64,000 bases of DNA from Isoetes taiwanensis (Eukaryota; Streptophyta; Lycopodiopsida; Isoetales; Isoetaceae): assembly GCA_021234155.1 (NCBI GenBank), contig JAJEKV010000014.1, positions 6,401,563 through 6,465,562 of the forward strand. Direction: 5' to 3'. A program made the translations under genes and the position numbers. Positions 13,454-64,000 of this stretch are shown here, in pieces; positions within the stretch are counted from its first letter, which is position 1, and the number at the start of each line of letters is the position of its first letter. Below the pieces are notes generated by a model, which saw only the letters and a program-made list of their open reading frames with translations, did no database searches and was not told the origin of the DNA.

Positions 13454-14808
13454 TATTCATACATTTGTACCACTCCCTTGGTGATTGTTTCCATCCATAA
13501 ACTGCCTTTTTCAATTTCCAAACCTTCCCATTTCCTTTTTCAAATCCTGGTGCTTGTTTCAAATATATTTCTTCTTCAAGATTTGCATTTAAGAAGGCTG
13601 TGCTGACATCCATGTGATGCACCTCAAGATCATGTGAGTTTGCAATTGCAAGCAAGATTCTCAAACTGTTTATTTTAACCAAAGGTGAAAAAGTTTCATC
13701 ATAATCTCGTCCCCTTTTTTATGTAAAGCCTTGTGCAACTAATCTGGCTTTAAATTTGTCAGGCTTTCCCTTACTGCCAGGTTTGATTCTAAACACCCAT
13801 TTATTTCCAATGACATTTTTATCTAAAGTTCTGTCAACAACATCATATGTATCAGTTCTTTTAAATGCTTCCATCTCTACTTGCATGGCTGCCAACCATT
13901 GTTTTGCAAACTTCCCATTTATAGCTTCATTATAGCTTTTTGGCAGTTCAGCATTTTCCAAGCTTAAAACATCAAATACACTGTGTATTTCACCTACATG
14001 CGGCTGAAACCTTTTGCTTCTTCCTAATTCATTTCTGCCATGAAATTCCACTAATTTTTTATTTTCATCTTCAAGCATTTGAGCCTCAGTTCTTCTTGCT
14101 TTTCGTTTTGGTTTTTCTGGTGTAATATCTCTCCCAGGATCATCTGGTATTTCTGCTTCTTCTCCATGTAATAATGCTCTATCCACTGTTTCTGTTTCAC
14201 TCTCATCTTCAGATTCATCACATGAATAATTTTGTGTTTCCATCATTTCCTTTTCCATTTTAACATCTTCTAGTTTTTCCTCTACAGTTTCAGACCTGTT
14301 GTCTTCATGTTTATCTGAAGTATTTACCTTTGGAATCAATTTATAAAACTGAGACTCATCAAAGATAACATCCCTACTTATTATAATCTTCCTATGTGCA
14401 GGATCAAACAGCCTATAGGCTTTAGAATTCTCGTCATAGCCAACTAGATAGGTGATATATGCCCTGTTGTCTAATTTTTTTTCTCAATTCTTCTGGTACA
14501 TGTGCAAAAGAAAGACATCCATAAGCTCTTAAATTATCAAAAGAAGGCAACTTACCTGACCACAGCATTTCAGGAGCAGCTCCATTTGTACTTGATGTTG
14601 GCAATAGATTTTGAACATACACAGCAGTCTTAACAGCTTCATCCCAAATAAAGTTTGGCAGACCTGAGTACTTCAACATAGATCTAACTGCATTAAGCAG
14701 TGTTCTATTCTTCCTCTCTGCCACTCCATTTTGTTGAGGTGAAAACCTGCAAGTCAATTGCCTTTTGATTCCAAGTTTAGCACAAAACACCTTGAATTCC
14801 TTTGACAA
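13454..14808 (-). pseudogene. Copia integrase C-terminus, linker and RT N-terminus, unit 1
   Basis: In sense order: integrase end with FSPQQNGVAERKNRTLLNAV (catalytic Glu) and GYLSFAHVPEE-like GKO-domain residues, then an acidic linker (CDESEDESETETV), then RT start with NKWVFRIK, RLVAQGFT and HHMDVSTAFLNANLEEEIYL. Frame breaks occur near 14,480 (an extra T in a T-run) and near 13,717 (Q to stop at the VAQGFTQ position). The gypsy element entered the integrase region at 14,808, so the core is split across 13 kb. Confidence 0.85.
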
Positions 14809-16372
14809 TGTGACGCTCCCTGAATATATACGACCCCCGGTCGTATACATACGGGGACTTTCCCCTCCCATGGCGACCATCTCGCCACGAGCAGGGCCCT
14901 CCATCTAACCCGAGCCGTCTACATAGAGACGCTCAGGTGAAGGACACGGAGGGGTCATTCGGCCCACGCCTTCGATGGGCGCCTACGTCGCGGAAGCATG
15001 AATACAAGGGTTAGCACACAACATAAATCATATACAATTAGCCACCACGAAGGGTGGCGCATCCATCCAAATACTAACAACAAGGAATATGCATCTAAAC
15101 TAAGAAAACACCCAAAACCCAGGTTCTACCCCGGCTCAGACTCTAGTGGGGAGCGACTGACGGCTGGGTCTCAGGAGATCAGCAGACCGAATCTTGGCAT
15201 GGCGTTGGCTGGCATAGAACATCGGCTAGGGTTGTCCACTCCATCCGCCCCTCCTGTACACACTTTGCAGATGGGTCGATTCACCCTATGGCTTCGCTAT
15301 AGCCTTCCGGAGATGCAGACTCAAGGTATCACCCTTTGAGCCTACTCCAGGTTCATGACACCTGGTCCGATGAGGCAGGTCAGGGAAGCGTCCCCTTCCA
15401 GGATCACAGTGGTTCCATGGGTGAGCTAGAGGATACGTGCCGCATCAGCGACCCCCGCACCCGTACCCAACTTACTCACCCTAATTCTACTCAAAGTGCA
15501 TGGTGCCCCATACGGGTCACACCACTACACCCAGGGAGTGTCAGACCCATACCTGGCCCTCTACGTGACTGGCTATCAGGCCTAGCCCACTGTAGGAGTC
15601 TCAGGAGCCTTTTATGCTCGTGCAAGACCCCACCCCCACTTCGCCACTGTGTCCTTTGTCTGGTGCTAAGCCAGACCATAGCGTCTATGACCCGGTGGGC
15701 TCTTGTGCACATGCCGAACTAGTAGGGAGCATTCTATACTCAAGCTCAGAGGCCTCTACCCCCCCTTTTAATCCCTGTTTACTGGAGCTACTAAACTGAC
15801 TCATAGAGACATCGACCATCCCATAACAGAGTATCATTCATAATTAAAAAGTATTCCTAATTACCAAAGAAGGGTTAATCTCAACCAAAACTAGCAAAAC
15901 AAGAATACTAGAGTATTATTCTACAATTTGCAAGTTAAACTACCACTAACCAGAGTTTCGGCTGGACCCGTTGTCAAGGGGTGCTTCCATAGTGCTGTAC
16001 TGGGGTAGCAGCGACAGGTAGAGGGTGTCTTGGCGATTGGGGGATGTTCAGCAACTGTGCTTTGAGCGCTTAGCTGCTCCTTGGTGCTGGCTGGGTCGAA
16101 ATTGGGGGCAGGATGGGGGTGGCGCTGCCTTTGGTGGCTCAGTTTAGAAACCCCCATGCTGGCCACTCAGGTTATGCCAATTGGCGCCTTCCCACCATTA
16201 GGTGACTTAATAGCAAGTATTTAGATAATTATCCTTAATAATTAATTTAACATAGCTAATTAAATCCCTTGTGGCCAACCCCCTAGGTTATCATACCCCA
16301 GGTGGCGTATCTATACCGAGTGACGTGTCAATATATTTATACGGACTCCGTATAAATACTTGGAACGTCACA
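14809..16372 (-). repeat. Chromovirus 3' LTR (1,564 bp)
   Basis: It begins TGTGACGCTCCC and ends GGAACGTCACA. Near its right end is a palindrome TTTATACGGA-C-TCCGTATAAA (about 16,337-16,357). It lacks the 251-bp MITE and the 18-bp insertion present in the other LTR. ORFs in it in either orientation have no recognisable content. Confidence 0.95.
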
Positions 16373-16385
16373 TTCTCCCCTCCTT
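16373..16385 (-). other. Polypurine tract of the chromovirus
   Basis: The minus strand reads AAGGAGGGGAGAA directly upstream of the 3' LTR, the usual plus-strand primer. The rest of 16,386-16,989 is a 3' untranslated stretch without a recognisable ORF. Confidence 0.85.
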
Positions 16386-16989
16386 AGAACTAATGCTGTC
16401 CTCAGCATTGGGGTTAGTTACGAATGTAGAAAGAAATACATTATGAAGGAAGGTAATTCCTTATTTTTGCAAAAGTAATACATATATTCAAAACTTCAAA
16501 GTTTGCAAAATAGTTCAAGCACCGTGGTGCATTCGACATCATTATCATAATCAAAAAGTTCAAGAACAGAAGTCCAATACTAACATCAGTGGACACACAA
16601 ACAAAACATGTAGACAAATAAAACTGAAGAGTTCGGGTCATCAGTAACCCTCTAGCATGGGCAGGGCACGCACTGCTTACTGGCCTGCACATGTCAGTAT
16701 ATCAGTATGTATGATGAAATTGTGGTTGAAGGGACCACCCCCTTATAATAATTACAAGAAAATCTTATCTATCAGGGAACTTATCATGTCTATAGTTTGC
16801 AGTTCATTGCAGCATAGGGAAGGGTCAAGTTCTCATTGTAGCCGAAAGGAACGCGGCCTATGAACTATATGCTCTGCAACAAGTTGTGGTTAGGTCAACA
16901 TTGACAGTACACCACGTCCTAGAGAACACAAAGTGATCTCATCATCGGTAACCTGTTATTATTTACGATGCATCTACCCCTCTAAGGCG

Positions 16990-18480
16990 CTACAAGCTTC
17001 TAAGCTTACCGCCAGTTGCGGGGTTGATGGCATCGTTGATGGTGCGGCCTTGAGATTCGCGCATGAAATCCGGATAATGCCTGTCAAGGTCTATCTTCAT
17101 CACCCACGTAGCATCCTCAACTGGTAAGTGTTTCCACTTAACCAAGTATTGCAACATTTGAGTTCTTCTGGTTTGTTTGTAAGCTCGATCAAGAAGAGCT
17201 TCAGGCACTATTTCGAGTTGCTCTTCTGTCATTTCTAGGAGGGTTGGTGTATCCAAAACCTCCTCTGGATCAGGGGTGTGTTGCTTCAGAAGACTCACGT
17301 GAAAGACCCTGTGGATCTTCAAGCTGGGCGGCAATTCTAATCGATATGCCTGCTCTCCAACGCGCTCAATAATCTTGAACGGTCCAGCCCATCTGGGGGC
17401 CAACTTTTTGCAGTTGCCAATCTTAAGCTTGGCTTGCTTCACTTTAATCTTAAGCCAAACTGATTCACCCACCTGAAAAACGCGTGGGGTTCTGTGCTTG
17501 TCGGCTACACTCTTCTGACAACTGCGTGCGGCTAACAAGTAGCCACGAACTTCTTCGACCAGAGCTTGCATCTCCAGGAGGAGTTTTTGAGAAACCTCCA
17601 CCTTAGAAACGGGGTTATGCCATGTGTCCGGAGTAAGACATTGGTAACCATAGTTTATCATAAAGGGAGACATTCTGGAAGACTCCTGTTTCATGCTGTT
17701 ATAGGCAAACTCGACTAGGTAAATATAGTCAGCCCATTGTGATTGTTTACTCCACACATAACTTCTTAGCATATCCTCTATAATGCGATTGGTACGTTCG
17801 GTCTGACCATCTGTTTGAGGATGATATGCTGTACTCGTAGCAAGCTTGGTCTGAATGGTGGCAAAGAAATCTTTCCAGAATGCACTTACAAATTTGGGAT
17901 CCCTATCCGACACAATTACTCGTGGCATTCTATGCAATCTGAAGATTTCTTTGGCAAAGAGCAGAGCAGTATCAAAGGCTGTATCTGTGGTATGACATGG
18001 CAAGAAATGAGCCATTTTCGACAATTTGTCGACCACAACCATTAAGGCATCATACCCCCGGAGAGTTCTTGGAAGGCCCACAATGAAGTCCATGGTTATC
18101 ACTTCCCATTTGGCGTTGGGTACATCCAGAGGTTGTAACTCGCCTGGGATCCTTAACTGTTCAGCTTTTGTTTGCTGGCATACTTGACACTGCCTAATGT
18201 ATCTGGCAATGTCCTTTTTCATAGAAGGCCAGAAATAGCTGGAGCGAATCTTAAAGTAGGTTTTCATAAAACCTGCGTGTCCAGCTATAGGGCTATTGTG
18301 TGTGTCATGAAGAATGAGCTTCCGTACTCCTGAGGTCTCGGGTACGCACAACTTATCCTTGTGATATAATAAGTTGCCCTCTTTCTTATATGCACGAAAG
18401 GCCTCGTGCTCTGTATCTGTGCGAGCTTCCTTAGCCAAACTATCCCAAATGTCACAGAACTCCGGATCTGTGGACAAGGT
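16990..18480 (-). CDS. Chromovirus integrase with C-terminal chromodomain
   Basis: About 495 codons, opening just after an in-frame TAG at 18,481. The HHCC finger is visible as HDTHNSPIAGHAGF followed by CQVCQQTK. The catalytic triad is D in VITMDFIVGLP, D in VSDRDPKF and E in NRIIEDMLR. A GPF/Y-type module follows (PRWAGPFKI, LKIHRVFHVSLLK). Residues about 422-471 form a chromodomain with PEALLDRAY, YLVKWKHLP and DATWV. In such elements the chromodomain is thought to steer integration to chromatin carrying particular H3 methyl-lysines; that role is family knowledge, not shown here. The catalytic residues are intact. The stop before it separates it from RT, so translation needs readthrough or an intact relative. 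Confidence 0.93.
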   Translation of the reverse strand, partial: TLSTDPEFCDIWDSLAKEARTDTEHEAFRAYKKEGNLLYHKDKLCVPETSGVRKLILHDTHNSPIAGHAGFMKTYFKIRSSYFWPSMKKDIARYIRQCQVCQQTKAEQLRIPGELQPLDVPNAKWEVITMDFIVGLPRTLRGYDALMVVVDKLSKMAHFLPCHTTDTAFDTALLFAKEIFRLHRMPRVIVSDRDPKFVSAFWKDFFATIQTKLATSTAYHPQTDGQTERTNRIIEDMLRSYVWSKQSQWADYIYLVEFAYNSMKQESSRMSPFMINYGYQCLTPDTWHNPVSKVEVSQKLLLEMQALVEEVRGYLLAARSCQKSVADKHRTPRVFQVGESVWLKIKVKQAKLKIGNCKKLAPRWAGPFKIIERVGEQAYRLELPPSLKIHRVFHVSLLKQHTPDPEEVLDTPTLLEMTEEQLEIVPEALLDRAYKQTRRTQMLQYLVKWKHLPVEDATWVMKIDLDRHYPDFMRESQGRTINDAINPATGGKLRSL

Positions 18481-19938
18481 CTACTCTATCTGTTTCCCAA
18501 ACTCACTGGTGAGTGTAGAAATGGCATTACAATGGGTTCGGGTCACCAAGGGATGGCGTGACAATGCATCCGCAATCACATTGTGCTTGCCAGGCTTATA
18601 CATAATCTCGAAATCATACTCCTCCAAGAATTCCATCCATCTTCTCTGACGAATGTTGAGATTTGGCTGGGTGGATAAATAACGGAGACTTTGATGATCC
18701 GTATCCAACAGGAATCTTCTACCAAGAAGGTAGTGTCTCCATATCCGCAGAGCACGGACAACGGCTAACAATTCCTGATCATGGGTGGGATATCGTTGCT
18801 CCGTCTCGTTCATTTTCTTTGAATCATAAGCAATGACCCTCCCCTCCTGCATTAGGACTCCACCGGTGGCAATCTTGCTGGCATCCGTCGCCACCAGTTT
18901 ATCCTGGTCAGGATCGGGCAATGTGAGAACTGGTGCTGATGTTAAGGCCTCCTTAAGCTGCTGGAAACTTTCCTGAACTTTTGTCTTCCAGTGCTCCATC
19001 CAATCTTTCACCTTCTCTTGCTTTGTGAGGTTTGTAAGAGGGGCTGCAATCTTTGCAAAATCCTTTACAAATTTTCGATAATATCCTGCTAATCCCAAGA
19101 AACTCCGGACTTCGGAAACATTCCCTGGAATAGGCCATTCTCTTACGGCCTCTATCTTTGCGGGGTCTGTAGCAATTCCCTCTGCCGAAATGATATGGCC
19201 CAAATAATCGACCTTCGGAGTGGCAAACTTGCACTTAGAGAACTTAGCATAGAGCTGATGACGCCTTAGCTTTTGTAGGGCTAATCTAAGATGTTTCTCA
19301 TGCTCCTCGAGAGTCTTACTATAGATGAGAATGTCGTCGAAGAAAATAACAACAAAATCATCCAAGTATTGTCGGAAGACATCATTCATTAGTCGCATGA
19401 ATGTTGCTGGGGCATTAGTTAATCCAAAAGGCATAACTGTAAATTCATAATGCCCATACCTAGTGCGAAAAGCAGATTTATGGATGTCCTCCTCTTTGAT
19501 CCTTATCTGATGGTATCCGGAGCGTAGATCAATCTTTGAGAAGTACTTAGCCCCTTGCAACTGATCCATTAGGTCATCGGCTCGAGGCAAAGCATAGCGA
19601 TTCTTGATGGTATGCTTGTTGAGTTGCCGATAATCAATACACATCCTTAGCGAACCGTCCTTTTTCTTAACGAAGAGAATAGGAGCGCCAAAAGGCGAAA
19701 CGCTAGGTCGGATGAAACCTAGGTTTAGTAGCTCCTGAAGTTGCTTCTTAAGCTCTGCCAATTCTGGAGGACTCATGCGGTACGGGGCCTTGCTGGTAGG
19801 CTTGGTACCTGGCTCTAAAGCTATTTCACATTCCACCCCTCTAAAAGGAGGAAGCTTCTGAATCTCATCTGGGAAAAGGTCACCAAATTCCCGGAGAAGA
19901 TGAGCAATCCCCTCTGGCAAGGTGTCGATTACTTGCTT
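18481..19938 (-). CDS. Chromovirus reverse transcriptase and RNase H
   Basis: An open block between two in-frame TAG codons (19,939-19,941 and 18,481-18,483), same frame as gag and integrase. RT motifs run in order: [55 protein letters not shown], the catalytic [10 protein letters not shown], then [15 protein letters not shown]. RNase H follows with [32 protein letters not shown] and [11 protein letters not shown], and [10 protein letters not shown]. Key Asp residues are present. It shows no internal damage apart from the bordering stops. Confidence 0.95.
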
Positions 19939-20973
19939 CTATTTAGCATCTGACTCTATGGAAGCAAGCCTAATGACGCAAAGGAGTTTTTCCTTGCGTA
20001 TAGCTTTAGCTAACTGTCTGATGGACATAGACTGCATGATAGGGTTGAATGGTTCACCTTTGATAGTCACGCGGGCTCCATTAGCTGCGTTGAAGGTAAC
20101 TTGTCTCTTCTCGCAGTCTATGTTGGCTTTTGCAGATGCCAAGAATTCCATCCCAACAATGAGGTCATATTTGCCAATATCCATCAATTCAGCACCCAAA
20201 GCAACTGGTGCACCTGGCAATTGCATCTTAAGATTGATGCGGCGGCCATGAGTATGCCTGACCTTACCACTGGCTAGAGTAACAGGCCTCGGTCGGGATC
20301 TTAATGTTTCAAGCTGTAAGACCTGGGCCATCCTAGGGGCAGCAAAATTATGTGTACTTCCCGTATCCATAAGAATTACAAAAGGCTTACTGTCTACTTG
20401 ACCTATGGTGGAAATGACAGCAGGCTGACTTTCGGCATTGCCGGTTTCGATAGCTGCAAGGATATGAGACGCACCGTGAATATACTCGGGAGCCTCCTCT
20501 TCGACAGGTAAGGTCGACTCCAAATCGTCCCAATCGAGGTCGGCCATGGCTAGCTGGGCAGTCTGCGTAACATAAGGACAATTGTGCATAAAGTGCCCGG
20601 GCCGCATACACCTGTAGCATGCCTTATCCTGGCGGAGCTGTTCTCGGGCCTCTTTAGGAATTGACTGTAAGAGGTTCCGTACTTCCCTACCGACATTGCT
20701 CTGTTTGTCCGCTGTGGTGAAGGTAACTTTCTTTTCCTGGCGGCCATAGGAATTCTGCTGAGAGGGGCCCGGGCTTGGCGACCGGGGTTTGTACGGTGTG
20801 GATGGCCGGGGCTGCGAGTAGGGAGCAGGACGCGGATACTGGTTCCTTGGTGTGTCCTCCTCGAGGCTCAATGCCTTAGCCTCAGCCTCCGCAACTGATT
20901 TCGGGTCTATAGCCTTAACCATCCGTTTGATTGATGGGGCCAACCCTTCAATATAGCCCTCAACGGCTCTCTT
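19939..20973 (-). CDS. Chromovirus nucleocapsid zinc knuckle and aspartic protease
   Basis: The same frame as gag, from the codon after the TAA at 20,974. A basic, Pro-rich stretch precedes a CCHC knuckle, CYRCMRPGHFMHNC. The protease core is ILMDTGSTHNFAAP, with a second motif around LIVGMEFLASAKANID. The block ends at an in-frame TAG (19,939-19,941) six codons before LPEGIAHLL of the RT block. It is part of the gag-pol polyprotein, split only by the stop codons. Confidence 0.92.
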   Translation of the reverse strand, partial: KRAVEGYIEGLAPSIKRMVKAIDPKSVAEAEAKALSLEEDTPRNQYPRPAPYSQPRPSTPYKPRSPSPGPSQQNSYGRQEKKVTFTTADKQSNVGREVRNLLQSIPKEAREQLRQDKACYRCMRPGHFMHNCPYVTQTAQLAMADLDWDDLESTLPVEEEAPEYIHGASHILAAIETGNAESQPAVISTIGQVDSKPFVILMDTGSTHNFAAPRMAQVLQLETLRSRPRPVTLASGKVRHTHGRRINLKMQLPGAPVALGAELMDIGKYDLIVGMEFLASAKANIDCEKRQVTFNAANGARVTIKGEPFNPIMQSMSIRQLAKAIRKEKLLCVIRLASIESDAK

Positions 20974-21753
20974 TTAATTTATACCTGGTACATACAGCCT
21001 CAGGCGTATAAATTCATCAGTGTAAGCCTGAACCGACATACCCTTCTGCTCTAACCTATAAAAGGTCTGAATTTGCTGGCATTTGTGCACACGAGGCACA
21101 TAATGCGACTTGAATGCTTTGGCAAACTTTCTGAAATTGCATCTGCTCCTGTCTAGGTGCTTGGCCCTGGCGTAGCCCTTCCACCAAATACGGGCAGCTC
21201 CTGTAAGGTTGGTGGTGGCAACCTTTCCTATATCCTTCTCCGTCATGCCATAGGACTTCCCAAACTCCTTCATTTCGTCCAACCAAGACTCTGCATTCAG
21301 TCCGCCTCTGGATTTCCCATCAAACTGGGCCAATTTCCTATTCTTCCATATACTAGTTATAGCTGTATCAATCGTCTTACGGTATTCCTTATCCCGGCGC
21401 TTTGCATGGTCACCAGCTGATACCGATGAATCAGAAGACACCGAAGTGGTTGAGCGTGAGGAAGTGGCACTATCCTTAGAGGAACTTCGGTGACGCTTAG
21501 TATGAAGCCTCCTCGGTGTGGGTACAGGACTGGCTCCAGGGGGGGACGGCTGTTGTGCAGGTGGGCTCGGTGGTAACGGAGGTAACTCCGGCCCATCTTC
21601 CTGGGTTTGCTGTGGTGGATTGGCATGCAACACATAGGCCTGTAACTCGCCTAGCTGCCTTTTCATTAACATCAGTTCCTGTTCGGGTGTGAGTCTACTG
21701 GCATTTGAAGGCGTCTGCCAGGCGGCGCTACGTGCACCGTCTAAATCGAGCAT
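20974..21753 (-). CDS. Chromovirus gag (capsid)
   Basis: About 259 codons from ATG at 21,753. A Pro/Ser-rich N-terminal half (PPLPPSPPAQQPSPPG) is followed by the retrotransposon-gag fold: FDGKSRGGLNAESWLDEM, KVATTNLTGAARIWWKGY, FKSHYVPRV and MSVQAYTDEFIRL. The frame then meets TAA directly after LYVPGIN, where the family normally continues; the same frame resumes with RAVEGYIEGL. A CAA-to-TAA change would explain this. Gag forms the particle core. It begins about 250 bp after the accessory ORF at 22,004. Confidence 0.9.
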   Translation of the reverse strand: MLDLDGARSAAWQTPSNASRLTPEQELMLMKRQLGELQAYVLHANPPQQTQEDGPELPPLPPSPPAQQPSPPGASPVPTPRRLHTKRHRSSSKDSATSSRSTTSVSSDSSVSAGDHAKRRDKEYRKTIDTAITSIWKNRKLAQFDGKSRGGLNAESWLDEMKEFGKSYGMTEKDIGKVATTNLTGAARIWWKGYARAKHLDRSRCNFRKFAKAFKSHYVPRVHKCQQIQTFYRLEQKGMSVQAYTDEFIRLRLYVPGIN

Positions 21754-22003
21754 GGAAAAGGTATAAGCATAGTTATAACATATAAATTCTTACAAATTTT
21801 ATTATGTCGGACACAAGGGTAGAGAAAGAACATAAGGGAAATTTATTATTATAAGAGGAAAAACTTTCCTATTACAGTTTCACACCCTAGTACTGCCAAA
21901 ATTGATACAGGAGTATTACACAAGGACAATCATGATACAACTGATGCTTAAAGTTGAGCTCACCTACAGTATATAACACAAAAAGAAACTAGAAAGACCC
22001 GGC

Positions 22004-22449
22004 CTAGGGGTTCGCAAAGGGGTACAGGATTGAATAGCGAACACTCTCACGCACAGCCCTAACGAGCTTGTAGCGTGCCCAGGCCTGGACAATGACTGGT
22101 TGGTATTCCCACGTTGGGCTAATAATGAGGAGATTGAAAAGCCTCCTCAAAGCATAGAAGAGTTGCCACAGGTGGTCGTTAGCGTCCTCGAAGGCTTCGT
22201 GCCTGGTCATGCTCCAGTAGTCCCATGTGCGGCACAGAGTTTTCTTCAGGTCCTCAAAAGCCCTGTCCCTCCATCCCTTTGGCTGGATCATAGGGTTCTC
22301 CTGGTGGCGGGAGTTCCATCTCGTATCCTTCATCCCATTCTGGATATTCTCCATATCTTTGGCCATAGTCCTGTTCGGGCGGCCCTGGATCCTCCCTCCT
22401 GATCAGATCTGTAATCCTCTCTTCATATTCCAGAAGAGTTTCTTCTGCA
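22004..22449 (-). CDS. Small accessory ORF region upstream of gag (two overlapping frames)
   Basis: Not recognised. A splice-acceptor-like TTGTCTTGCAG ends at 22,450, followed by an open frame to 22,253 that is acidic and Pro-rich (RREDPGPPEQDYGQRYGEYP, EMELPPPGEPYDP). A second frame from ATG 22,366 to 22,004 (120 codons) has a helical-looking C-terminal part (RDRAFEDLKKTLCRTWDYW, DANDHLWQLFYALRRLFN). The two look like halves of one protein separated by a frameshift near 22,280. It could be a spliced exon leading toward gag or the decayed end of a captured gene. Confidence 0.4.
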
Positions 22450-22660
22450 AGACAATAGCAATGAATATAGAGTGTTGCATAATTTTATTTTACTTTAACT
22501 CCAATGATTAGAAGAACTTAACATGGAAAAGAACAATTGTATTCCTCGATACCATAATCACAGTCGATCAGAAAAAGTATATCATATTATAGAATGGCTA
22601 AAGAATTTGCCAAAACAAAATTTTACAATCATACAATACAAAAATGCGTAGTACAATTAT

Positions 22661-24037
22661 TTAAGAACTAGGTCCTCCCTCTTCATTTTTAGGCCTAGGA
22701 GGTGGTGGTGGCGGTCGGTGTCGCAGCAGAGTCACCCCGGGGTCTACTGTGGCAGCCGCAATAGATGCAACCTCTGGTGGATAAGCAACAGCCAATGGGG
22801 CTGCCGTAAGGAGCTTCATGCTCATCCAGGGTGCAATATCTTGGCCCAAAGCCGTCAGGGCGAGATCCCGTCGTACGAGTACATAAGTAAACGTACGATA
22901 GGGAAGTTTCTTATGCCCGGCCAATGTGGAGAGAGCACGGAGGGTCCACCATGAAGCTTCAGCCTCCGGCCCTAGATCTCGGGCTATAAAAAGAACTTGG
23001 CCCTGCCGAAAAGCTGATAAGAAGAAGCGGGTAATGTGGTTTCCCAATACCTTCCCTTGTGGGGTCTCCGACGTGGCCACTTTCTTATCCAAATCCATAG
23101 GGACTTCTTCTTCCTTGAGTTCCTGTTGCTCCTCCTTCACATGAGCAGGATTATGATATAAATCCTCTCCCTCGTCATCTGACCCAGAGGGAACCTCAAC
23201 CATATTGATATTTGGGACATGAGGTCCCATAGCCGTGAAGGCATCTGGTGAAGGCTGAGAGGCCGGCTCCTGCATCACCAAGTCCCGAAGCCGTAGCAAT
23301 GTCTCGGCGGGTTCTATAGTCTCCTGACGGAACTGGAGCAGCTGCTGCACCTCCGGAGGAAGCTCAATAGAAGTGAAGTCGATGAAATCGTCCATACAAT
23401 ACTCCGCAAGCTTGCGTCTAAATCCGGCCACCATGTGATAAGTCCAGATAATATCATCCAAGAGAAGGTATTCTTGCCCTTGGTGATAAATAACTGGAAG
23501 GGCATCCAGCCCTGACAAGCCTCCAGCTTGCTCCCGGCGCGGTGGCAGCTCTTCCGCCAGTTGCTTCCAACGGGCGAAGTCGCCCATGCCTATGTGTTCG
23601 TCTTCCCCCTCCTCGGAAGACGCAGGCAGTTTGCCTTTCTCTACAGGCAAGGTTTCATCCTCGACGTATTGGTCCATGAGGATGGCTAGGGCGAAGGCAA
23701 CCTCAAGATATTGCCGCCCCTGATGCTGCACAACGGGCAGGTGTTTGCCCCATCGGAGCTTTCCCTTCAGCACATCATATGCATGGGTGTCTCCCCCTAA
23801 CATCTCCCGGACTACCTCCTGCTCCAAATACAGTTGGGGAGGATCCCCAAGAGGGATACACAGAGGGAGCATCTCCTCCATGTAGAAGTCTAGAAATCCG
23901 GCATAATCCGAGTGCCGCTGCATGTTGGTAATGAGGTCTAGGCGTTGGCATAGTAAGGGCCGCAACAGGTCGAAAGGGACTTGCGGATCCCAATGTTCTC
24001 CGTCTTGATACCATGCGAGAAGGTCAGCGGCTGCCAT
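22661..24037 (-). CDS. Accessory ORF of unknown function, about 458 codons
   Basis: Chosen start is ATG 24,037 (MAAADLLAWYQDGEHWDP); the frame is open a further 39 codons upstream but without ATG. I do not recognise the family. Visible features: two diverged internal repeats, LPVVQHQGRQYLEV and LPVIYHQGQEYLLL, about 90 residues apart; an acidic region (SGSDDEGEDLYHN, EEQQELKEEEVPMDLD); a hydrophobic/aromatic segment (RFFLSAFRQGQVLFIARDLG); and a Pro-rich tail (PPPPPPRPKNEEGG). No signal peptide or membrane helix is evident. The long open frame free of stops suggests recent constraint or recent acquisition. It sits between the H3-like ORF and gag on the same strand, as if part of one transcription unit. 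Confidence 0.7.
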   Translation of the reverse strand: MAAADLLAWYQDGEHWDPQVPFDLLRPLLCQRLDLITNMQRHSDYAGFLDFYMEEMLPLCIPLGDPPQLYLEQEVVREMLGGDTHAYDVLKGKLRWGKHLPVVQHQGRQYLEVAFALAILMDQYVEDETLPVEKGKLPASSEEGEDEHIGMGDFARWKQLAEELPPRREQAGGLSGLDALPVIYHQGQEYLLLDDIIWTYHMVAGFRRKLAEYCMDDFIDFTSIELPPEVQQLLQFRQETIEPAETLLRLRDLVMQEPASQPSPDAFTAMGPHVPNINMVEVPSGSDDEGEDLYHNPAHVKEEQQELKEEEVPMDLDKKVATSETPQGKVLGNHITRFFLSAFRQGQVLFIARDLGPEAEASWWTLRALSTLAGHKKLPYRTFTYVLVRRDLALTALGQDIAPWMSMKLLTAAPLAVAYPPEVASIAAATVDPGVTLLRHRPPPPPPRPKNEEGGPSS

Positions 24038-24260
24038 GGCGCTAGGAGGGAGGAGGAAGCAAGAAAACAGAGAGAGCAATTGATATGAACCTTGAAATTC
24101 CTTTTGAACTCTTTTTATTATTATGCTGACGTCAGCAAATTTCGTATTTAACACTAAGTAAAATAAAAATAAAAAAATAAAAAAAATATCCTTAATACAA
24201 ACAAAAGTTTTTTATTAATTCTCAAAAATATTTACAATGTGGAGAACCCAGCAAAATATG

Positions 24261-24980
24261 CTAAGGATGCTCCCCCCGAATCCTACGGGCAAGGGCTAAA
24301 TCCTTAGGCATAATGGTAACCCTCTTTGCGTGGATCGCGCAAAGGTTGGCGTCACCGAAAAGCGCCACTAAATAGGCCTCCGCAGCCTCTTGGAGTGCCA
24401 AAATTGCAAATGTCTGGAAGCGGAGGTCGGTTTTGAACTCCTGGGCAATCTCACGTACCAACCGCTGGAAGGGAAGCTTCCGTATCAGAAGTTGTGTCGA
24501 CTTCTGAAACTTACGGATTTCCCGTAAGGCGACAGTGCCGGGTCGGTACCGATGAGGCTTCCTCTGCGGAGCAGGGTTTGGAGGCGGCCCCCTTGAGGCC
24601 GGCACGGTCTTGGCCCCAACAGCGGGTCGGGACGCATCCACCCGCTGCTGCCTCCGGCTGGAGCTCGCGTTCTTCCCAAAAGCCCCGACAGTCTTTAGCT
24701 TTTCCTTGTATTGACTGCCGGACTTCCGGGCCACGGACTTCCTCCGGTGCTTCACGGTCATGTGCTCCGTTGGGATTGGGCCCTTCCCACTCCCGGATGC
24801 TCCTGCACCCTGTTGGTCCGGCTGTTCCTGTCGGGCCTTCTCCGCTTTCTCCCGTTCTATCCTATCCTGCTCTTCCCGGAATTCCCGGGCTCTCCTAAGA
24901 TCTTCTTCAACCTGAGCAAAATGTTGTGCGGCGCTACGGCGGAGAAGTTCAGCATGGTACCGGTCGGGTCTCTGGGCCAT
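24261..24980 (-). CDS. Histone H3-like protein with long novel N-terminal tail, encoded inside the chromovirus
   Basis: An intact ORF of 239 codons from ATG 24,980 to TAG 24,261. Residues about 142-239 (nt 24,557-24,264) are a complete histone H3 fold: [15 protein letters not shown], then [40 protein letters not shown], and [16 protein letters not shown] ending ARRIRGEHP. From the Pro of KPHRYRPG on I count about 15 differences from ordinary plant H3, so identity is near 85%. Residues at the H3-H3' tetramer interface (Cys-Ala-Ile-His, Arg, Asp) and the K56, K79, K115 and K122 equivalents are kept. Loop 1 lacks the insertion typical of plant CENH3. Residues 1-73 are charged and probably coiled ([20 protein letters not shown]). 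Residues 74-141 are basic and include ARKS (84-87), like H3 K9/K27 context. The frame is also open upstream of the ATG to about 25,250. Function is unknown. Confidence 0.9.
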
Positions 24981-25509
24981 GTCAATCTGGATTGTTATTA
25001 AATAATCTATACTAATATCTGGGATTTCCCCCCATATGAAGCTGCGGGAATCCTCATCCCATCGGTATGGGGGAATCGCGATGGCCCTGCCATCTATGAC
25101 GGCGACCCCATCCCCGAGGTACCTGTACTCCCTGCCCCGAGCCGCCGTATCAGCTCGCTCTATCTCCCGGCGGTCATCCTCCCTCGCCAGGTTTCTGATG
25201 CGGTCGGCCTCATCCCTGATGTCCCCCTCCTCGGTATTCGGGAGGGTAGAACTTGATCAGCATCATGACCAAGTCAGGCTGCTCGGCCATGGTGTAAGGG
25301 AGCTGGCGAAGGTTCAGTCGGATCAAGAATGGTTCCGAGAAGTGGTAAATGGGATAGGGAATCCTTTCATTGTTCTCAAACCTGTTAACTAGCTCGTCTA
25401 GAAGTATGTCGATCAAAGCAGGGTCGGTAGCCATATTCCGAGCAATCAAGGCATAAATCTGGCCGATAGTAAGGTTGGTAGGATCCGGAGCACTCTTGGT
25501 ATTGGCCAT
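24981..25509 (-). CDS. First accessory ORF of the chromovirus, frameshifted
   Basis: From ATG 25,509 a 99-codon frame ([20 protein letters not shown], then [16 protein letters not shown] and [18 protein letters not shown]) ends at a stop at 25,210, just after a G-run near 25,230. In the next frame over, coding-like sequence starts about there ([48 protein letters not shown]). It runs without a stop straight into the ATG of the H3-like ORF. One base too many in the G-run, or a frameshift during translation, would explain this. Family not recognised; it may be the N-terminal part of one large H3-containing protein. Confidence 0.5.
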
Positions 25510-25805
25510 AGCTGTGGCGCGAAGGTATAAGACGGCAGGCGGTGAGGCGCGGCCGGCAAGGGAGACGGCAATGGGGCCGCTAGGGTTAGCGGAGCACTAA
25601 GGCGGAAAAAGCAAGGTCAGATCGGGCGGCGATGGCAGGCGTCGGTTCCGGCGGTCGAAGGCGCTGAAGGCAAGGCGAGAACAAAACAACAAAAAAGAAC
25701 TCTTAATGGGCCAGTTAACTTTTGAAATTTTAAAATTTTTCTTATTAACTTTTTTTTTTAATTTTGTTATTATAAAATAATTATACGGCAGAAATACGCG
25801 ACACC

Positions 25806-25993
25806 TACGGTCGGGCGCCGGCTGCATTATACGTGCTCCCGCCTCGACTGGGGGTCGTCGAAAAGCAAGCGGCGCCCGAGTTGACCTTGCGGGGCCGCGT
25901 TGACTCCCATCTGTACGATCGGGCGCCGACTGCATTTTCGGCTCTTCCACCGTGACTACAAGGCGATAAAAAGCAAGCGGCGCCCGAATTGGT
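25806..25993 (-). repeat. Duplicated GC-rich stem-loop in the chromovirus leader
   Basis: Two copies of about 80 bp with a period of 108 bp (from 25,806 and 25,914). Each begins with TCGGGCGCCG and ends with its exact reverse complement CGGCGCCCGA, so each can fold as a 10-bp-stem hairpin. They lie in the 5' untranslated leader between PBS and first ORF, where packaging or dimerisation signals of retroelements reside; that role is inferred. The rest of 25,510-26,284 has no gene I recognise. Confidence 0.65.
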
Positions 25994-26284
25994 TTTCGAG
26001 CCTGCCCTTGATCATTTTTCGCCGGGAGACGACTGTTCTAGGGTAATTTGAGTACGCCCGATCCAATGGAACCACCTTCTCCGTCTTTTGAGCTACCCAC
26101 TGATATTTACTTCTCTTCCAATCTTGGGCCCTCCAGTCGCCCTATCTTCTTTAAAGCTACAATTTCATAATTTAACCTAACACCGACCCAAACATCAAAG
26201 AGGACTAACAACACATTAACTTAGCCTCCTCCTAACTACCGTACTACGAGTTAGTGTTTGGCCAGTGCTATGATTTCGAGCAAC

Positions 26285-26307
26285 CGAAATCACGGCTCTG
26301 ATACGAC
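26285..26307 (-). other. Primer binding site of the chromovirus (initiator tRNA-Met type)
   Basis: The minus strand reads TCGTATCAGAGCC right after the 5' LTR. Plant initiator-tRNA-Met PBS begins TGGTATCAGAGC, so it matches with one substitution in the first 12 bases. Confidence 0.75.
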
Positions 26308-28144
26308 TGTGACGCTCCCTGAATATATACGACCCCCGGTCGTATACATACGGGGACTTTCCCCTCCCATGGCGACCATCTCGCCACGAGCAGGGCCCTC
26401 CATCTAACCCGGGCCGTCTACATAGAGACGCTCAGGTGAAGGACACGGAGGGGTCATTCGGCCCACGCCTTCGATGGGCGCCTACGTCGCGGAAGCATGA
26501 ATACAAGGGTTAGCACACAACATAAATCATATACAATTAGCCACCACGAAGGGTGGCGCATCCATCCAAATACTAACAACAAGGAATATGCATCTAAACT
26601 AAGAAAACACCCAAAACCCAGGTTCTACCCCGGCTCAGACTCTAGTGGGGAGCGACTGACGGCTGGGTCTCAGGAGATCAGCAGACCGAATCTTGGCATG
26701 GCGTTGGCTGGCATAGAACATCGGCTAGGGTTGTCCACTCCATCCGCCCCTCCTGTACACACTTTGCAGATGGGTCGATTCACGCTATGGGCAAAAGTAT
26801 GCTGGTGGGTATCAAAAGCAGGCGTCTGGACACATGCTGACAGCACTCATATAGCACCCCATATGGCAGCTTGTTTAAGGTGTTACTGGTACTAGCACAT
26901 GGTAATTAGGTAATCAATAGAAATATGTAACAACTCCAACTAATAACAAGTGGAATACTATGATAGAATAGTACATCCAGGGTGCTGATCTAAGTGCTGG
27001 GGCCGCGTTTTTTTGATACCCACTAGCATACTTTTGCCCCTATGGCTTCGCTATAGCCTTCCGGAGACGCAGACTCAAGGTATCACCCTTTGAGCCTACT
27101 CCAGGTTCATGACACCTGGTCCGATGAGGCAGGTCAGGGAAGCGTCCCCTTCCAGGATCACAGTGGTTCCATGGGTGAGCTAGAGGATACGTGCCGCATC
27201 AGCGACCCCCGCATCCGTACCCAACTTACTCACCCTAATTCTACTCAAAGTGCATGGTGCCCCATACGGGTCACACCACTACACCCAGGGAGTGTCAGAC
27301 CCATACCCGGCCCTCTACGTGACCGGCTATCAGGCCTAGCCCACTGTAGGAGTCTCAGGAGCCTTTTATGCTCGTGCAAGACCCCACCCCCACTTCGCCA
27401 CTGTGTCCTTTGTCTGGTGCTAAGCCAGACCATAGCGTCTATGACCCGGTGGGCTCTTGTGCACAGGCCGAACTAGTAGGGTGTTAAAGGAGTACTAGGA
27501 GCATTCTATACTCAAGCTCAGAGGCCTCTACCCCCCCTTTTAATCCCTGTTTACTGGAGCTACTAAACTGACTCATAGAGACATCGACCATCCCATAACA
27601 GAGTATCATTCATAATTAAAAAGTATTCCTAATTACCAAAGAAGGGTTAATCTCAACCAAAACTAGCAAAACAAGAATACTAGAGTATTATTCTACAATT
27701 TGCAAGTTAAACTACCACTAACCAGAGTTTCGGCTGGACCCGTTGTCAAGAGGTGCTTCCATAGTGCTGTACTGGGGTAGCAGCGACAGGTAGAGGGTGT
27801 CTTGGCGATTGGGGGATGTTCAGCAACTGTGCTTTGAGCGCTTAGCTGCTCCTTGGTGCTGGCTGGGTCGAAATTGGGGGCAGGATGGGGGTGGCGCTGC
27901 CTTTGGTGGCTCAGTTTAGAAACCCCCATGCTGGCCACTCAGGTTATGCCAATTGGCGCCTTTCCACCATTAGGTGTCTTAATAGCAAGTATTTAGATAA
28001 TTATCCTTTATAATTAATTTAACATAGCTAATCAAATCCCTTGTGGCCAACCCCCTAGGTTATCATATCCCAGGTGGCGTATCTATACCGAGTGACGTGT
28101 CAATATATTTATAGGGACTCCGTATAAATACTTGGAACGTCACA
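26308..28144 (-). repeat. Chromovirus 5' LTR (1,837 bp, with nested MITE)
   Basis: Co-linear with the LTR at 14,809-16,372, with the same TG...CA ends. It is longer because of a 251-bp MITE (26,789-27,039) and an 18-bp insertion near 27,481. Confidence 0.95.
26789..27039. mobile_element. MITE of 251 bp inside the chromovirus 5' LTR
   Basis: Terminal inverted repeats of about 29 bp with one mismatch begin GGGCAAAAGTATGCT at both ends. A 4-bp target duplication CTAT flanks it (26,785-26,788 and 27,040-27,043). The empty site is in the partner LTR at about 15,289. No coding capacity. The same MITE sits at the same LTR position near 63,790. Superfamily is not certain from the ends. Confidence 0.88.
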
Positions 28145-29390
28145 GACAACCACCTCGATCAGATCTCAAGCATTTTATTTTTCTTCCTGTTTCAAGTTGG
28201 ACTTCAGCAATGAATAATTTAAAGGCATCAAAAGCTTGATCCTTAGTTTTCAGACAATAACATCTTGTTTTTCTGCTGAAATCGTCTATAAATGTCATGA
28301 AATACCTATGTCCTGTCATGCTTGTCACATTTATAGGACCACATAGGTCAGTATGCACAAGATCTAATATTCCTTTTGCCCTTTTTGTTGATCTTTTAAA
28401 TGGCGGCCTAGTTTGCTTCCCTAGAACACATCCTGCACATAATTTGTTGTCAAGAATCTCATCCTTTGCTCTGATCCATTTCTTTTTTGCTAACATCTCT
28501 ACATTTGTCATATTTGTATGACACATTCTATTATGCCAAGTTTTTAAAGAAGCATACTCCACAATATTCATACTAGGCATTTGTTCAAGATCAAAACCAA
28601 AAAGATTCCCAACTCTTTTACCAATAAACTTAACTTCATTTCCAAAGAGAATTTTACATTCAAGTTTCTCAAAAGTGACCTTATAATCAAGGTCAACCAA
28701 CTGGCAAACAGAAATCAAATTTCTGACTAATCCAGGCACACACAAAACTTTTTTGAGTTTTACAGGTTTTCCTTCTAAATCAAATATTTCCAATACACCA
28801 ATGTCTTCTATTCTTTGCAAGGTTCCATCTCCCAACTGCACATGTCCAGCTTCTTCTTTTTTGCACTCCTTAAGCATTTTTGAATCACAATTCACGGTTT
28901 TCTCAACTCCTGAATCTATTATCAAGAATTTGTTACCCTTTTTGTTCAAATCATTTGAAATAGACAAAATATGATTGTCCTTTACCTCTGTTGTTTCATC
29001 AATCTCCTCCTCTTGGACTGACTTTGATTCTTGTACAATGTTCATGGTTGGAATTCCTCTTTGGTTTGATCTTCCTCTTCCAAATCCTCCCCTTGTATTT
29101 TGTCATCTTCCCCTTCCTCTGCCTTTTCCAAAATTCCCTTTTGGACTCGGGCAGTTTACTGCTACATGACCTTTCCCATCACAATTATAACATCTAATAA
29201 TTCTGCCCTCATTTGGACACTCAGCCTTAAGATGCCCATATTGGTTACAATTGTAACATGGCCCTAATTTTTCTTTATTGATATTCACTCCTCTTTTCAT
29301 TTTTCCAGCAAATAGGACCTCAGCAGAATTTTCTTCATCATCTAACTCAACTCCCTTTTGCGCAAATTATGTTCTAATCATTTGAACAGC
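28145..29390 (-). pseudogene. Copia gag end, protease and integrase start, unit 1
   Basis: Zinc knuckles (29,103-29,300), protease IIDSGVEKTVNCDS, the integrase HHCC region (WHNRMCHTNMTNVEM, CAGCVLGKQTRPPFK) and the first catalytic Asp in LVHTDLCGP are on the minus strand. A small frame break near 29,104 (C to A and stop) separates gag. The protease has Val after DSG, as in unit 0, whereas unit 2 has Ala. At 29,390 gag is fused to flank sequence. At 28,149 about seven bases (ATATTCA in unit 2) are missing next to the gypsy target duplication. Confidence 0.85.
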
Positions 29391-43361: not shown

Positions 43362-45309
43362 TTTCCAAGCTTAAAACATCAAATACACTGTGTATTTCAC
43401 CTACATGCGGCTGAAACCTTTTGCTTCGTCCTAATTCATTTCTGCCATGAAATTCCACTAATTTTTTATTTTCATCTTCAAGCATTTGAGCCTCAGTTCT
43501 TCTTGCTTTTCGTTTTGGTTTTTCGGGTGTAATATCTCTCTCAGGATCATCTGGTATTTCTGCTTCTTCTCCATGTAATAATGCTCTATCCACTGTTTCT
43601 GTTTCACTCTCATCTTCAGATTCATCACATGAATAATTTTGTGTTTCCATCATTTCCTTTTCCATTTTAACATCTTCTAGTTTTTCCTCTACAGTTTCAG
43701 ACCTGTTGTCTTCATGTTTATCTGAAGTATTTACCTTTGGAATCAATTTATAAAATTGAGACTCATCAAAGATAACATCCCTACCTATTATAATCTTCCT
43801 ATATGCAGGATCAAACAGCCTATAGGCTTTAGAATTCTCGTCATAGCCAACTAGATAGGTGATATATGCCCTGTTGTCTAATTTTTTTCTCAATTCTTCT
43901 GGTACATGTGCAAAAGAAAGACATCCATAAGCTCTTAAATTATCAAAAGAAGGCAACTTAGCTGACCACAGCATTTCAGGAGCAGCTCCATTTGTACTTG
44001 ATGTTGGCAATAGATTTTGAACATACACAGCAGTCTTAACAGCTTCATCCCAAATAAAGTTTGGCAGACCTGAGTACTTCAATATAGATCTAACTGCATT
44101 AAGCAGTGTTCTATTCTTCCTCTCTGCCACTCCATTTTGTTGAGGTGAAAACCTGCAAGTCAATTGCCTTTTCATTCCAAGTTTAGCACAAAACACCTTG
44201 AATTCCTTTGACAAATATTCACCACCTCGATCAGATCTCAAGCATTTTATTTTTCTTCCTGTTTCAAGTTGGACTTCAGCAATGAATAATTTAAAGGCAT
44301 CAAAAGCTTGATCCTTAGTTTTCAGACAATAACATCTTGTTTTTCTGCTGAAATCGTCTATAAATGTCATGAAATACCTATGTCCTGTCATGCTTGTCAC
44401 ATTTATAGGACCACACAGGTCAGTATGCACAAGATCTAATATTCCTTTTGCCCTTTTTGTTGATCTTTTAAATGGCGGCCTAGTTTGCTTCCCTAGAACA
44501 CATCCTGCACATAATTTGTTGTCAAGAATCTCATTCTTTGCTCTGATCCATTTCTTTTTTGCTAACATCTCTACATTTGTCGTATTTGTATGACACATTC
44601 TATTATGCCAAGTTTTTAAAGAAGCATACTCCACAATATTCATACTAGGCATTTGTTCAAGATCAAAACCAAAAAGATTCCCAAGTCTTTTACCAATAAA
44701 CTTAACTTCATTTCCAAAGAGAATTTTACATTCAAGTTTCTCAAAAGTGACCTTATAATCAAGGTCAACCAACTGGCAAACAGAAATCAAATTTCTGACT
44801 AATCCAGGCACACACAAAACTTCTTTGAATTTTACAGGTTTTCCTTCTAAATCAAATATTTCCAATACACCAATGTCTTCTATTCTTTGCAAGGTTCCAT
44901 CTCCCAGCTGCACATGTCCAGCTTCTTCCTTTTTGCACTCCTTAAGCATTTTTGAATCACAATTCACGGTTTTCTCAGCTCCTGAATCTATTATCAAGAA
45001 TTTGTTACCCTTTTTGTTCAAATCATTTGAAATAGACAAAATATGGTTGTCCTTTACCACTGTTGTTTCATCAATCTCCTCCTCTTGGACTGACTTTGAT
45101 TCTTGTACAATGTTCATGGTTGGAATTCCTCTTTGGTTTGATCTTCCTCTTCCAAATCCTCCCCTTGTATTTTGTCCTCTTCCCCTTCCTCTGCCTTTTC
45201 CAAAATTCCCTTTTGGACTCGGGCAGTTTACTGCTACATGACCTTTCCCATCACAATTAACATCTAATAATTCTGCCCTCATTTGGACACTCAGCCTTAG
45301 GATGCCCAT
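43279..45309 (-). pseudogene. Copia protease and integrase, unit 2 (best-preserved block)
   Basis: 676 open codons, beginning just 5' of the second zinc knuckle (CDGKGHVAVNC). Protease IIDSGAEKTVN has the canonical Ala after DSG. Integrase has the HHCC finger (WHNRMCHTN, CAGCVLGKQ) and catalytic D in LVHTDLCGP, D in LRSDRGGEYLS and E in NGVAERKNRTL. The tail continues through LRAYGCLSFAHVPEE, a GYDENSKAYR motif, and an acidic linker. The frame ends in a shift caused by about ten bases lost near 43,344 compared with 13,930. Confidence 0.93.
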
Positions 45310-56690: not shown

Positions 56691-57389
56691 TTGAGCTTTG
56701 TGCTACTGCACATAGAAAATTATTTGCTGACAACTATGACAGATGCTGGGATCAAATTGGTGAATTTGTGGGGTATCATCATTTATTCATTTCAAGACTC
56801 TCATTTAGAAATACTAATTGAATTTTATTGCCTAGGATATATGGAGCTTTGCAGAGGGCCTCACACAAACAGGTATTTCATCGCTAAAGATGGTGCCTCG
56901 TTGAGAAATGAAGTGGCTAGATATGGGGAGCAGAGAATTCATGAGCATCAGGTCTGTTATCCTCCACATAATCATTGGACAATCAGGCAGATAGAAAATG
57001 ATAAAGAGGTCAGAAGGAAAGCAGAAAGGTTATGGGCCAGAATATTCTCAAGAGAAGTGATGCAAACAGTTTACATGTTCTGGTTTATTGAAAAGCATCA
57101 TCATGAATTTACAGAAAGACAATTCCTGAGATATAGAGAACTGTATTACACTCACAGGATGCTAGCTGACAGCTATGTAACTCTTATTCTGCTCATGGTA
57201 CAACAGGATTACTACAGATTGATCAGAGATCAGCTTTGGATGGAGGTCTCCTACACTCATGGCACAACTTCCAAATTCACCTCCCGTTTCAACCACCTGA
57301 TCCTTAATGATGATCCTAATGATTGCAGAATTCCTACCATTCCCTCCACTATGATCCTCCAAAACATTGACAGCATTGCCTCTTTATGA
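56691..57389 (+). CDS. Unrecognised open frame in the LINE 3' region
   Basis: 232 open codons between zf-RVT and the poly(A). The first 50 residues overlap the end of ORF2 in another frame. The later part is strongly coding-like, rich in charged and aromatic residues: GASLRNEVARYGEQRIHEHQ, KEVRRKAERLWARIFSREVM, HHEFTERQFLRYRELYYTHR. It does not look like RNase H. It may be an extra 3' domain of this LINE lineage or a transduced host exon. I cannot assign a function. Confidence 0.5.
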   Translation: MSFVLLHIENYLLTTMTDAGIKLVNLWGIIIYSFQDSHLEILIEFYCLGYMELCRGPHTNRYFIAKDGASLRNEVARYGEQRIHEHQVCYPPHNHWTIRQIENDKEVRRKAERLWARIFSREVMQTVYMFWFIEKHHHEFTERQFLRYRELYYTHRMLADSYVTLILLMVQQDYYRLIRDQLWMEVSYTHGTTSKFTSRFNHLILNDDPNDCRIPTIPSTMILQNIDSIASL

Positions 57390-63478: not shown

Positions 63479-63501
63479 TTTCCAGTTTCCATTAAAACCG
63501 A

Positions 63502-64000
63502 AAGCATGAATACAAGGGTTAGCACACAACATAAAATCATATACAATTAGCCACCCGCGAAGATTGGTATCCAACTCAAATACTAACAACAAAGGAATAT
63601 GCATCTAAGCCCAAGAAAACCACCCAAAACCAGGTTCTACCATTCGAGACTCTGAGTGGGGAGGCGTGGAGTCTCGAGGGAAGTCCGGCGGACGAATCTG
63701 GCGTGCGTTGGTGGCATAAGTGTAATAGGGTTGTCCACTCCATCGCCCCTCACGTACACACTTTGCGGATGGGTGCGATTCACTTGTATGGGCAAAAGCG
63801 TAATGGTGGGTATCAAAAGCGGTAGGACATCTTTGTGGCCTCATATAGCACCCCATATGGCAGCTTGTTTAAGATTATTCTTGGTACTAGCACATGGTAA
63901 TTGGGTAATCAGTAGGAAATATGTAACAACTCCAACTAATAACAAGTGGAATACCATGATAGAATAGTACATCGGGGTGCTGATCTAAGTCTTTGGGGCA
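63502..64000 (-). mobile_element. Degraded chromovirus LTR fragment with the same nested MITE
   Basis: From AAGCATGAATACAAGGGTTA the sequence follows the chromovirus LTR from about 183 bases inside its terminus (compare 14,995), with many single-base gaps. At 63,790 the MITE terminus GGGCAAAAG starts at the same LTR position as at 26,789, and the MITE runs to the window edge. Dense indels mean an old copy or poor sequence quality. Confidence 0.82.

Follow-up and report, generated by a model that had tools for sequence, protein, structure and literature searches.

The question raised by this locus is why a plant retrotransposon carries an open reading frame that ends in a core histone, and whether that histone is a gene of the element or a host sequence carried along without function. 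The locus lies in a stretch of 64,000 nucleotides of the Isoetes taiwanensis genome (contig JAJEKV010000014.1, positions 6,401,563 to 6,465,562), which is called the window below and whose own numbering is used throughout. A preliminary description of the window reported an intact 239-codon ORF on the sense strand of the element, between the 5' LTR and gag. This was borne out: the ORF occupies 24261-24980 of the minus strand, and its ATG stands in the context GACATGG. It is one of three extra ORFs between the 5' LTR and gag, the others being termed ORF2 and ORF3.

The surrounding element is a chromovirus (Ty3/Gypsy) of 13,336 bp (14809..28144), located on the minus strand, as are all of its features given here. 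It is bounded by a 5' LTR of 1837 bp (26308..28144) and a 3' LTR of 1564 bp (14809..16372), and the target-site duplication GACAA is found at 14804-14808 and 28145-28149. The site of insertion was a Ty1/copia element, and the flanks match 43407-45072. The two LTRs differ by 13 substitutions in 1564 aligned positions; the insertion age is about 0.3 million years at the substitution rate of rice (1.3e-8), which may not be the rate of this plant. A primer-binding-site-like sequence, TCGTATCAGAGC (26295..26306), was located by eye 1 nt after the 5' LTR, and we take it to resemble the tRNA-iMet type of primer-binding site. The polypurine tract AAGGAGGGGAGAA (16373..16385), also identified by eye, adjoins the 3' LTR on its upstream side. 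Between these sites were found gag (20974..21753; Pfam Retrotrans_gag, 1.9e-12), a protease (19939..20973; RVP_2, 2.7e-13, with a weak zinc-knuckle match at 0.01), reverse transcriptase (RT) with RNase H (18481..19938; RVT_1, 1.5e-39), and an integrase (INT) with a C-terminal chromodomain of type II (16990..18480; Integrase_H2C2, 1.4e-20; Chromo, 1.1e-7). The element thus has the paired LTRs with duplication, the gag-PR-RT-RH-INT order on one strand and the chromodomain at the integrase C-terminus that define a chromovirus. In the window copy, gag-pol is one frame with three in-frame stops and is therefore broken.

Several other features of the non-coding parts were recorded. The 5' LTR includes an extra insert of ca. 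250 bp with terminal inverted repeats (about 26790-27037) that is absent from the 3' LTR. Similar sequence occupies the same site in a related LTR at the right end of the window (63499-63990; 83% identity), so the insert seems to be of earlier date, and the 3' LTR may have lost it. The leader (25790-26010) contains repeated CGGGCGCCG/CGGCGCCCG arms, and its fold is better than that of 195 shuffles out of 200 (z -2.33); it may be a packaging or dimer signal. Seven splice-acceptor-like sites were counted in the element interior, where mononucleotide shuffles average 2.4. Four such sites precede the H3 fusion and ORF2 (25597-25664 and 24042-24154), and one of these is 4 bases ahead of the ORF2 ATG. 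The sequence TGCTGACGTCAGCA at 24124-24137 is palindromic.

The histone part of the ORF was delimited using Pfam, matches to solved structures and alignment. It comprises ORF residues 142-239 (24264..24557, minus strand), corresponding to H3 residues 38-135. The Pfam Histone match extended over ORF residues 124-235 (E=1e-40), and a phmmer search against solved chains gave a best E of 1.6e-53, with the best 60 of the 176 matched chains all named H3. The core is identical to plant H3.3 at 85 of 98 positions and to plant H3.1 at 84 of 98. The centromeric variant CENH3 has a core strongly diverged from H3; at 87% identity to H3.3, the element core is not of this kind. For the core, the earlier claim of a complete H3 fold close to plant H3 therefore stood. 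At 24 of 24 inspected positions that we assigned to contacts with DNA, with H4 and between H3 molecules, the residues of the window core were unchanged. A chance ORF is excluded by length, the H3 frame being open for 331 codons from stop to stop, whereas no frame exceeded 215 when the interior of the element was shuffled 200 times by mononucleotides; the fold match stands independently of this count. Single-sequence AlphaFold modeling of the histone part was poor (block means of 43-61 from residue 131 on), and Foldseek returned one match with E<=0.001, a nucleosome chain, at a low TM-score (0.18 by query). When the core was searched against proteins and the best 120 of 8000 matches were taken, the ten inspected were nearly all H3 doublets; single-domain relatives may rank lower. 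Searches for viral contigs with H3, ORF2 and RT, and for prokaryote contigs with H3 and ORF2, gave nothing useful.

The core departs from the host genes at the chaperone site (residues 87-90), which reads FAIL or HAIL in the element, according to subfamily (A and B, respectively), and SAVL, TAVL or HAVL in the host genes. L90 is kept in the element H3s, and residue 87 is F in subfamily A, unlike the S, T or H of the host. The 15 host H3 genes (L031-L045) are single open 136-codon frames with L at 90 and serine, threonine or histidine at 87.

The genome (1,658,258,908 bases in 1110 contigs) was searched for further copies, and the matches were ranked by similarity; L001-L030 are accordingly the closest copies, and the counts are lower bounds. 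With the H3 ORF as query, 11,633 first-look candidates yielded at least 150 genome matches that were 74-100% identical, and 110 of the best 150 had no stop (counted by eye). With a canonical H3 as query, the 15 host H3 genes (97-99% identity) were followed by at least 135 places at 72-87% identity, the range counted as element-type. There are thus at least 213 distinct element-type H3 places, many of them broken, versus 15 ordinary H3 genes among the matches listed. A search of the same genome for elements of the same order, as the preliminary description had proposed, was successful: among six 9-kb stretches picked for diversity, the order H3, ORF2, ORF3, gag was found in all six. In five, gag is followed by the protease, RT and integrase of the element itself; in the other (L061), a foreign element in the opposite orientation breaks the order after gag.

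A further sample was drawn through ORF2, so that the presence of H3 did not decide which copies were included. Of the 86 ORF2 matches, one in four was taken over ranks 10-86, and 1.15 kb upstream was inspected. An H3 match (E<=1e-5) in the right place and on the right strand was present in 20 of 20 copies, several badly broken. An H3 insertion private to the window copy is ruled out by this sample, together with the six stretches and the genome-wide count. The sample found through RT was less clear: at least 23 of 89 copies had a listed H3 upstream, and for 60 no H3 and no ORF2 was listed. Of those 60, six were inspected over 1.4 kb each: three (L088, L089 and L092) had a broken H3 in the right orientation, and one (L091) had H3 and ORF2 only on the opposite strand (L091:108-1368), which suggests another nearby copy or an inversion. 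The remaining two (L087 and L090) had no H3 in the 1.4 kb inspected, so relatives lacking H3 may exist.

One alternative is a passive transduction, in which a host H3 was caught in the element and carried without function. Gene capture is common in plant LTR elements, as described in excerpts of a review of additional ORFs (PMC7264820) and a capture survey (PMC3726574), and many copies are broken: in the ORF2-based sample, the core was open in one piece in 10 of 20 copies and the whole ORF in 4 of 20. The preliminary description had named dN/dS between copies as a check, a ratio near 1 indicating incidental capture. Ratios were obtained by pairwise Nei-Gojobori counting with our own script. 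They were not near 1, being 0.035 for the core in the 10 open cores of the ORF2-based sample and 0.038 in 48 distinct open cores. The adjoining N-terminal part (N part) of the ORF was far less constrained. In 39 copies with both parts, the core gave 0.033 (codon bootstrap 0.02-0.05, 100 replicates) and the N part 0.23 (0.185-0.287); in the six ORF2-sampled copies with both parts, the values were 0.025 and 0.254. In 35 ORF-spanning copies, some of which contain stops (stop codons were skipped), the core had a dN/dS of 0.040, the N part 0.193 and the domain upstream of it 0.105. Across the window and the six longer stretches, it was 0.038 for the core, 0.099 for RT, 0.127 for INT, 0.130 for gag, 0.216 for ORF2 and 0.258 for the N part; here, 6 or 7 copies were used for each and frames were pooled, so the non-core values may be too high. 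The H3 core is the most constrained part of the element that was measured. When frames were pooled over the complete ORF2-based sample of 20, intact and broken copies alike, the estimates were 0.202 (core) and 0.435 (N part); since such pooling mixes the reading frames of broken copies, these values are superseded.

Comparison with the host genes gives the time scale. Among themselves, the host H3 genes have a pS of 0.61 and a pN of 0.026; the constraint on the element core is thus of the kind seen on histones. Between element and host H3, synonymous sites are saturated (pS 0.95) and dN is 0.12, which indicates that the core has been held over a long time and makes gene conversion with host H3 an unlikely cause of the low ratio. 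Neutral evolution was also simulated from plant H3.3: of 4000 runs, 2138 stayed free of stops, and 13 of these changed as conservatively as the window copy; the share was 0.6-2.3% of stop-free runs when donor and rate were varied. The core ratio, far below that of the adjoining N part, rules out the incidental capture without function that the preliminary description had offered as an alternative, although 10 of the 20 ORF2-sampled copies lack an open core; together with the saturated synonymous difference from the host, it leaves passive transduction as a highly improbable account of the family. The H3 is, rather, an old, selected gene of the element.

The proposed phylogeny against host H3 points to a single origin. 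A tree of cores placed the 43 element sequences in a single clade (support 0.992), apart from the 14 distinct sequences of the 15 host genes. Five loci were left out of this tree: L026, L028 and L029, in which the anchor motif was not found, and L053 and L060, which repeat L017 and L001. The 15 host genes and most element cores have Glu at position 77, where the comparison plant H3.3 has Asp, and this common residue suggests a donor from this plant's lineage. Two subfamilies were distinguished, A (which includes the window copy) and B (L049/L065 and L055). The H3 of subfamily B is nearer to canonical H3 in several residues and less derived (HAIL), and its ORF2, open over 440 codons in L065, is 47% identical to that of the window. 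Since the H3s of both subfamilies fall in one clade, the capture seems to be older than the divergence of A and B. Next to the subfamily-B element of L065 lies another H3-bearing copy, broken and in the opposite orientation (L065:7941-8576, minus strand). We hold with great confidence, from sequence comparison, that a chromovirus lineage captured a host H3 once and long ago, fused its core to a new N-terminal region, and kept a working protein through transposition.

What was fused to the core differs from an H3 tail. The N-terminal part of the intact ORF (24558..24980, minus strand) consists of a helix followed by a basic stretch where the H3 tail would be. The helix spans ORF residues 7-51 (mean pLDDT 81-92 over residues 21-50) and is the sole confidently modeled part; the basic stretch has many conserved columns among the element proteins. 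A protein-collection search with ORF residues 1-141 gave 607 candidates, none at E<=0.01 among the lengths of 131-418 considered, a range that longer relatives could escape. When the N-terminal part was compared to the H3 tail, 13% of 5000 shuffles scored as high, so there is no likeness beyond that of shuffles. The completeness of the H3 is thus confined to its core. The canonical tail with K4, K9, K27 and K36 is missing, and the window copy has R at the position of K36. Of 45 element proteins, among which two are repeats and some are truncated, 32 contain the tetrapeptide ARKS; diverged copies have AHKS or AHKA at that site.

The 239 residues of the window copy appear to be the end of a longer protein. 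In this copy, the H3 frame is open for 92 codons upstream of the ATG, and a further piece of ca. 100 residues lies in another frame; the upstream domain (24981..25509, minus strand) is thus split over two frames here (25509-25213 and 25256-24981) and is continuous elsewhere. Among the 30 loci L001-L030, 12 have a single frame of 401-500 codons, free of stops, that runs through H3, with a MAN... stretch near its start. From these single long frames we conclude that the family protein is a fusion of about 420 residues, about 320 of which stand in place of the H3 tail.

These results bear on the proposal, also made in the preliminary description, that the element could supply its own chromatin mark and read it with its chromodomain. 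An element-supplied mark of the K9 type found no support: the usual tail lysines are gone, and the ARKS site is not constant. A mimic of the K9 tail as the main function was likewise rejected on the tail-shuffle test and the incomplete conservation of ARKS. As for the reader, the best solved relatives of the element chromodomain are chromodomains, and the W of its chromo box (YLVKWKHLP) is conserved; by eye, however, the first cage position is I and the third is L, so that the three aromatic cage residues of a type I chromodomain are not all present. The cage residues follow the pattern described for type II chromodomains, for which the binding partner is given as unknown in the excerpts of PMC3350952 and PMC6317226. 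Reading of H3 methyl-lysines was therefore not supported, and the idea of an element reading its own H3 mark is left without support.

The same pattern does lend something to a role in the targeting of integration, in which the fusion would enter chosen chromatin and its N-terminal domain would tether integrase or particles, replacing methyl-lysine reading. A type II chromodomain whose partner those excerpts leave unnamed is consistent with such a role, as are the conserved upstream domain (dN/dS 0.105) and the long helix ahead of the basic stretch. We consider this function rather unlikely.

A different use of the protein was considered in view of its DNA-contact residues, which are kept, and its basic stretch with many conserved columns: the H3 core, together with host H4, might bind the DNA of the element before integration and thus package particles or cDNA, like the virion histones of some large DNA viruses. 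Packaging histones exist in Marseilleviridae (excerpts of PMC9145170). These doublet histones are highly diverged, however, and the element core is near-canonical, like the single viral H3s that are thought to enter host chromatin (PMC9145170); packaging is accordingly judged unlikely.

Every contact position inspected is conserved, and no stretch measured is more constrained than the core; the element protein is therefore likely to bind host H4 and to be incorporated into nucleosomes or H3-H4 complexes. The protein could also act on the host at large, by titrating H4 or H3 chaperones or by altering host nucleosomes generally, thereby weakening silencing in trans. A precedent is the bracovirus H4, which becomes part of host nucleosomes and, by means of its additional tail, changes expression (excerpts of PMC9145170 and PMC5423620). 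A vertically inherited element, however, gains little from broad harm to its host, and such interference seems quite improbable as the main role.

The kept contacts and the replaced tail, taken together, favor a tail-swapped nucleosome that escapes silencing marks over these rivals. The H3 fusion would be translated, pair with H4 and enter chromatin. Nucleosomes with the element H3 would lack the tail with K9 and K27 on which plant silencing marks are written, and would display in its place an element-made domain of about 320 residues. On the chromatin of the element, the tail-swapped H3 would then blunt heterochromatin marking and keep the element transcribable. The combination of capture, a kept gene and H4 pairing, with a role at the level of chromatin, is on balance favored; counter-silencing is the leading candidate for the benefit and is advanced with some doubt. 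Weighing against this reading are the poor model of the histone part, the F at residue 87 in subfamily A, the many broken copies and the possible existence of relatives lacking H3.

The two other extra ORFs offered few clues to function. ORF2 (22661..24037, minus strand; 458 residues with a likely ATG at 24037) is conserved and has no assigned family. It contains acidic stretches, and its predicted structure has a mean pLDDT of 38.7. Two relatives, 41-43% identical over about 90% of the sequence, were found in 3-kb ENA contigs; both have a similar start and the same GPSS end. ORF3 (22007..22484, minus strand) is short, falls in two frames in the window copy, and was matched in all six long stretches. 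Searches of NCBIfam and PHROGs with the extra ORFs gave nothing convincing. Elsewhere in the window, a 232-codon ORF (56691-57389) had no Pfam match and no BLAST relation to the extra ORFs of the element.

Histones on mobile and viral genomes have been described before, and the comparisons made here draw on excerpts of the papers cited. A hAT DNA transposon of Pyrenophora tritici-repentis carries an H3-like gene, H3L, with 26 H3L genes in the genome (PMC3538342). In both cases, a mobile element with an H3-like ORF and another ORF of unknown function has multiplied in one genome. The fungal system is a DNA transposon with near-identical recent copies, whereas the Isoetes element is a plant LTR retrotransposon that is old, diverged and selected and has a long N-terminal fusion; it has gag-pol in place of the terminal inverted repeats and transposase of a hAT element. 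Single viral H3s, with 73-87% core identity, are known from Dishui Lake phycodnavirus, Manila clam xenomavirus and two cases of "late phycodnavirus", the last two having about 170 extra N-terminal residues (PMC9145170). Like these, the element H3 has a host-like core (87% here), a new or longer tail, as some of them have, and an altered chaperone site (TAIL and SAIL in the viral H3s; FAIL or HAIL in the element). Those belong to DNA viruses; the present gene belongs to an endogenous retroelement family, whose population of copies allows dN/dS to be estimated. The bracovirus protein CvBV-H4 (about 87% identity in the fold, 38 extra residues, H4 tail lysines kept; PMC9145170) is likewise a core histone with an extended tail used by a parasitic genome, but it is an H4 and acts in the parasitized insect.

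Among retrotransposons, the closest likeness in these sources is to the type II plant chromoviruses (PMC3350952, PMC6317226), which share the Ty3/Gypsy order and a chromodomain without a full aromatic cage; the descriptions there mention no histone gene, whereas the present element has three extra ORFs before gag. It also resembles LTR elements with additional ORFs or captured genes (PMC7264820, PMC3726574) in having protein genes beyond gag-pol, and in sorghum the genes captured by LTR elements are enriched for chromatin terms (PMC3726574). The word "histone" has no occurrence in the main texts of the review of additional ORFs (PMC7264820), the capture survey (PMC3726574) or the Isoetes genome paper (PMC8566536). 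In the open-access literature, which was the scope of the search (preprints and subscription papers lay outside it), no LTR retrotransposon with a core histone was found described. Histones of mobile elements are thus already known; within that literature, the novelty is an LTR element and the selection shown on its histone.

For the plant, the abundance of the family has practical consequences. Element-type H3 places outnumber ordinary H3 genes about 14 to 1 among the matches listed (at least 213 versus 15, many of the former broken), and this matters for H3 gene counts, antibody work and peptide mapping in this species. In a family of at least 200 copies, of which many are broken, the histone part has stayed nearly constant under selection. 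It is conceivable, and is proposed here tentatively, that a lycophyte retrotransposon makes its own nucleosomal H3 variant with the silencing tail swapped, and so would counter or bypass epigenetic silencing by supplying the nucleosome itself. Retroelement silencing is written on histone H3, and a family of tail-swapped H3s is a natural experiment on a parasite that may alter the nucleosome directly.
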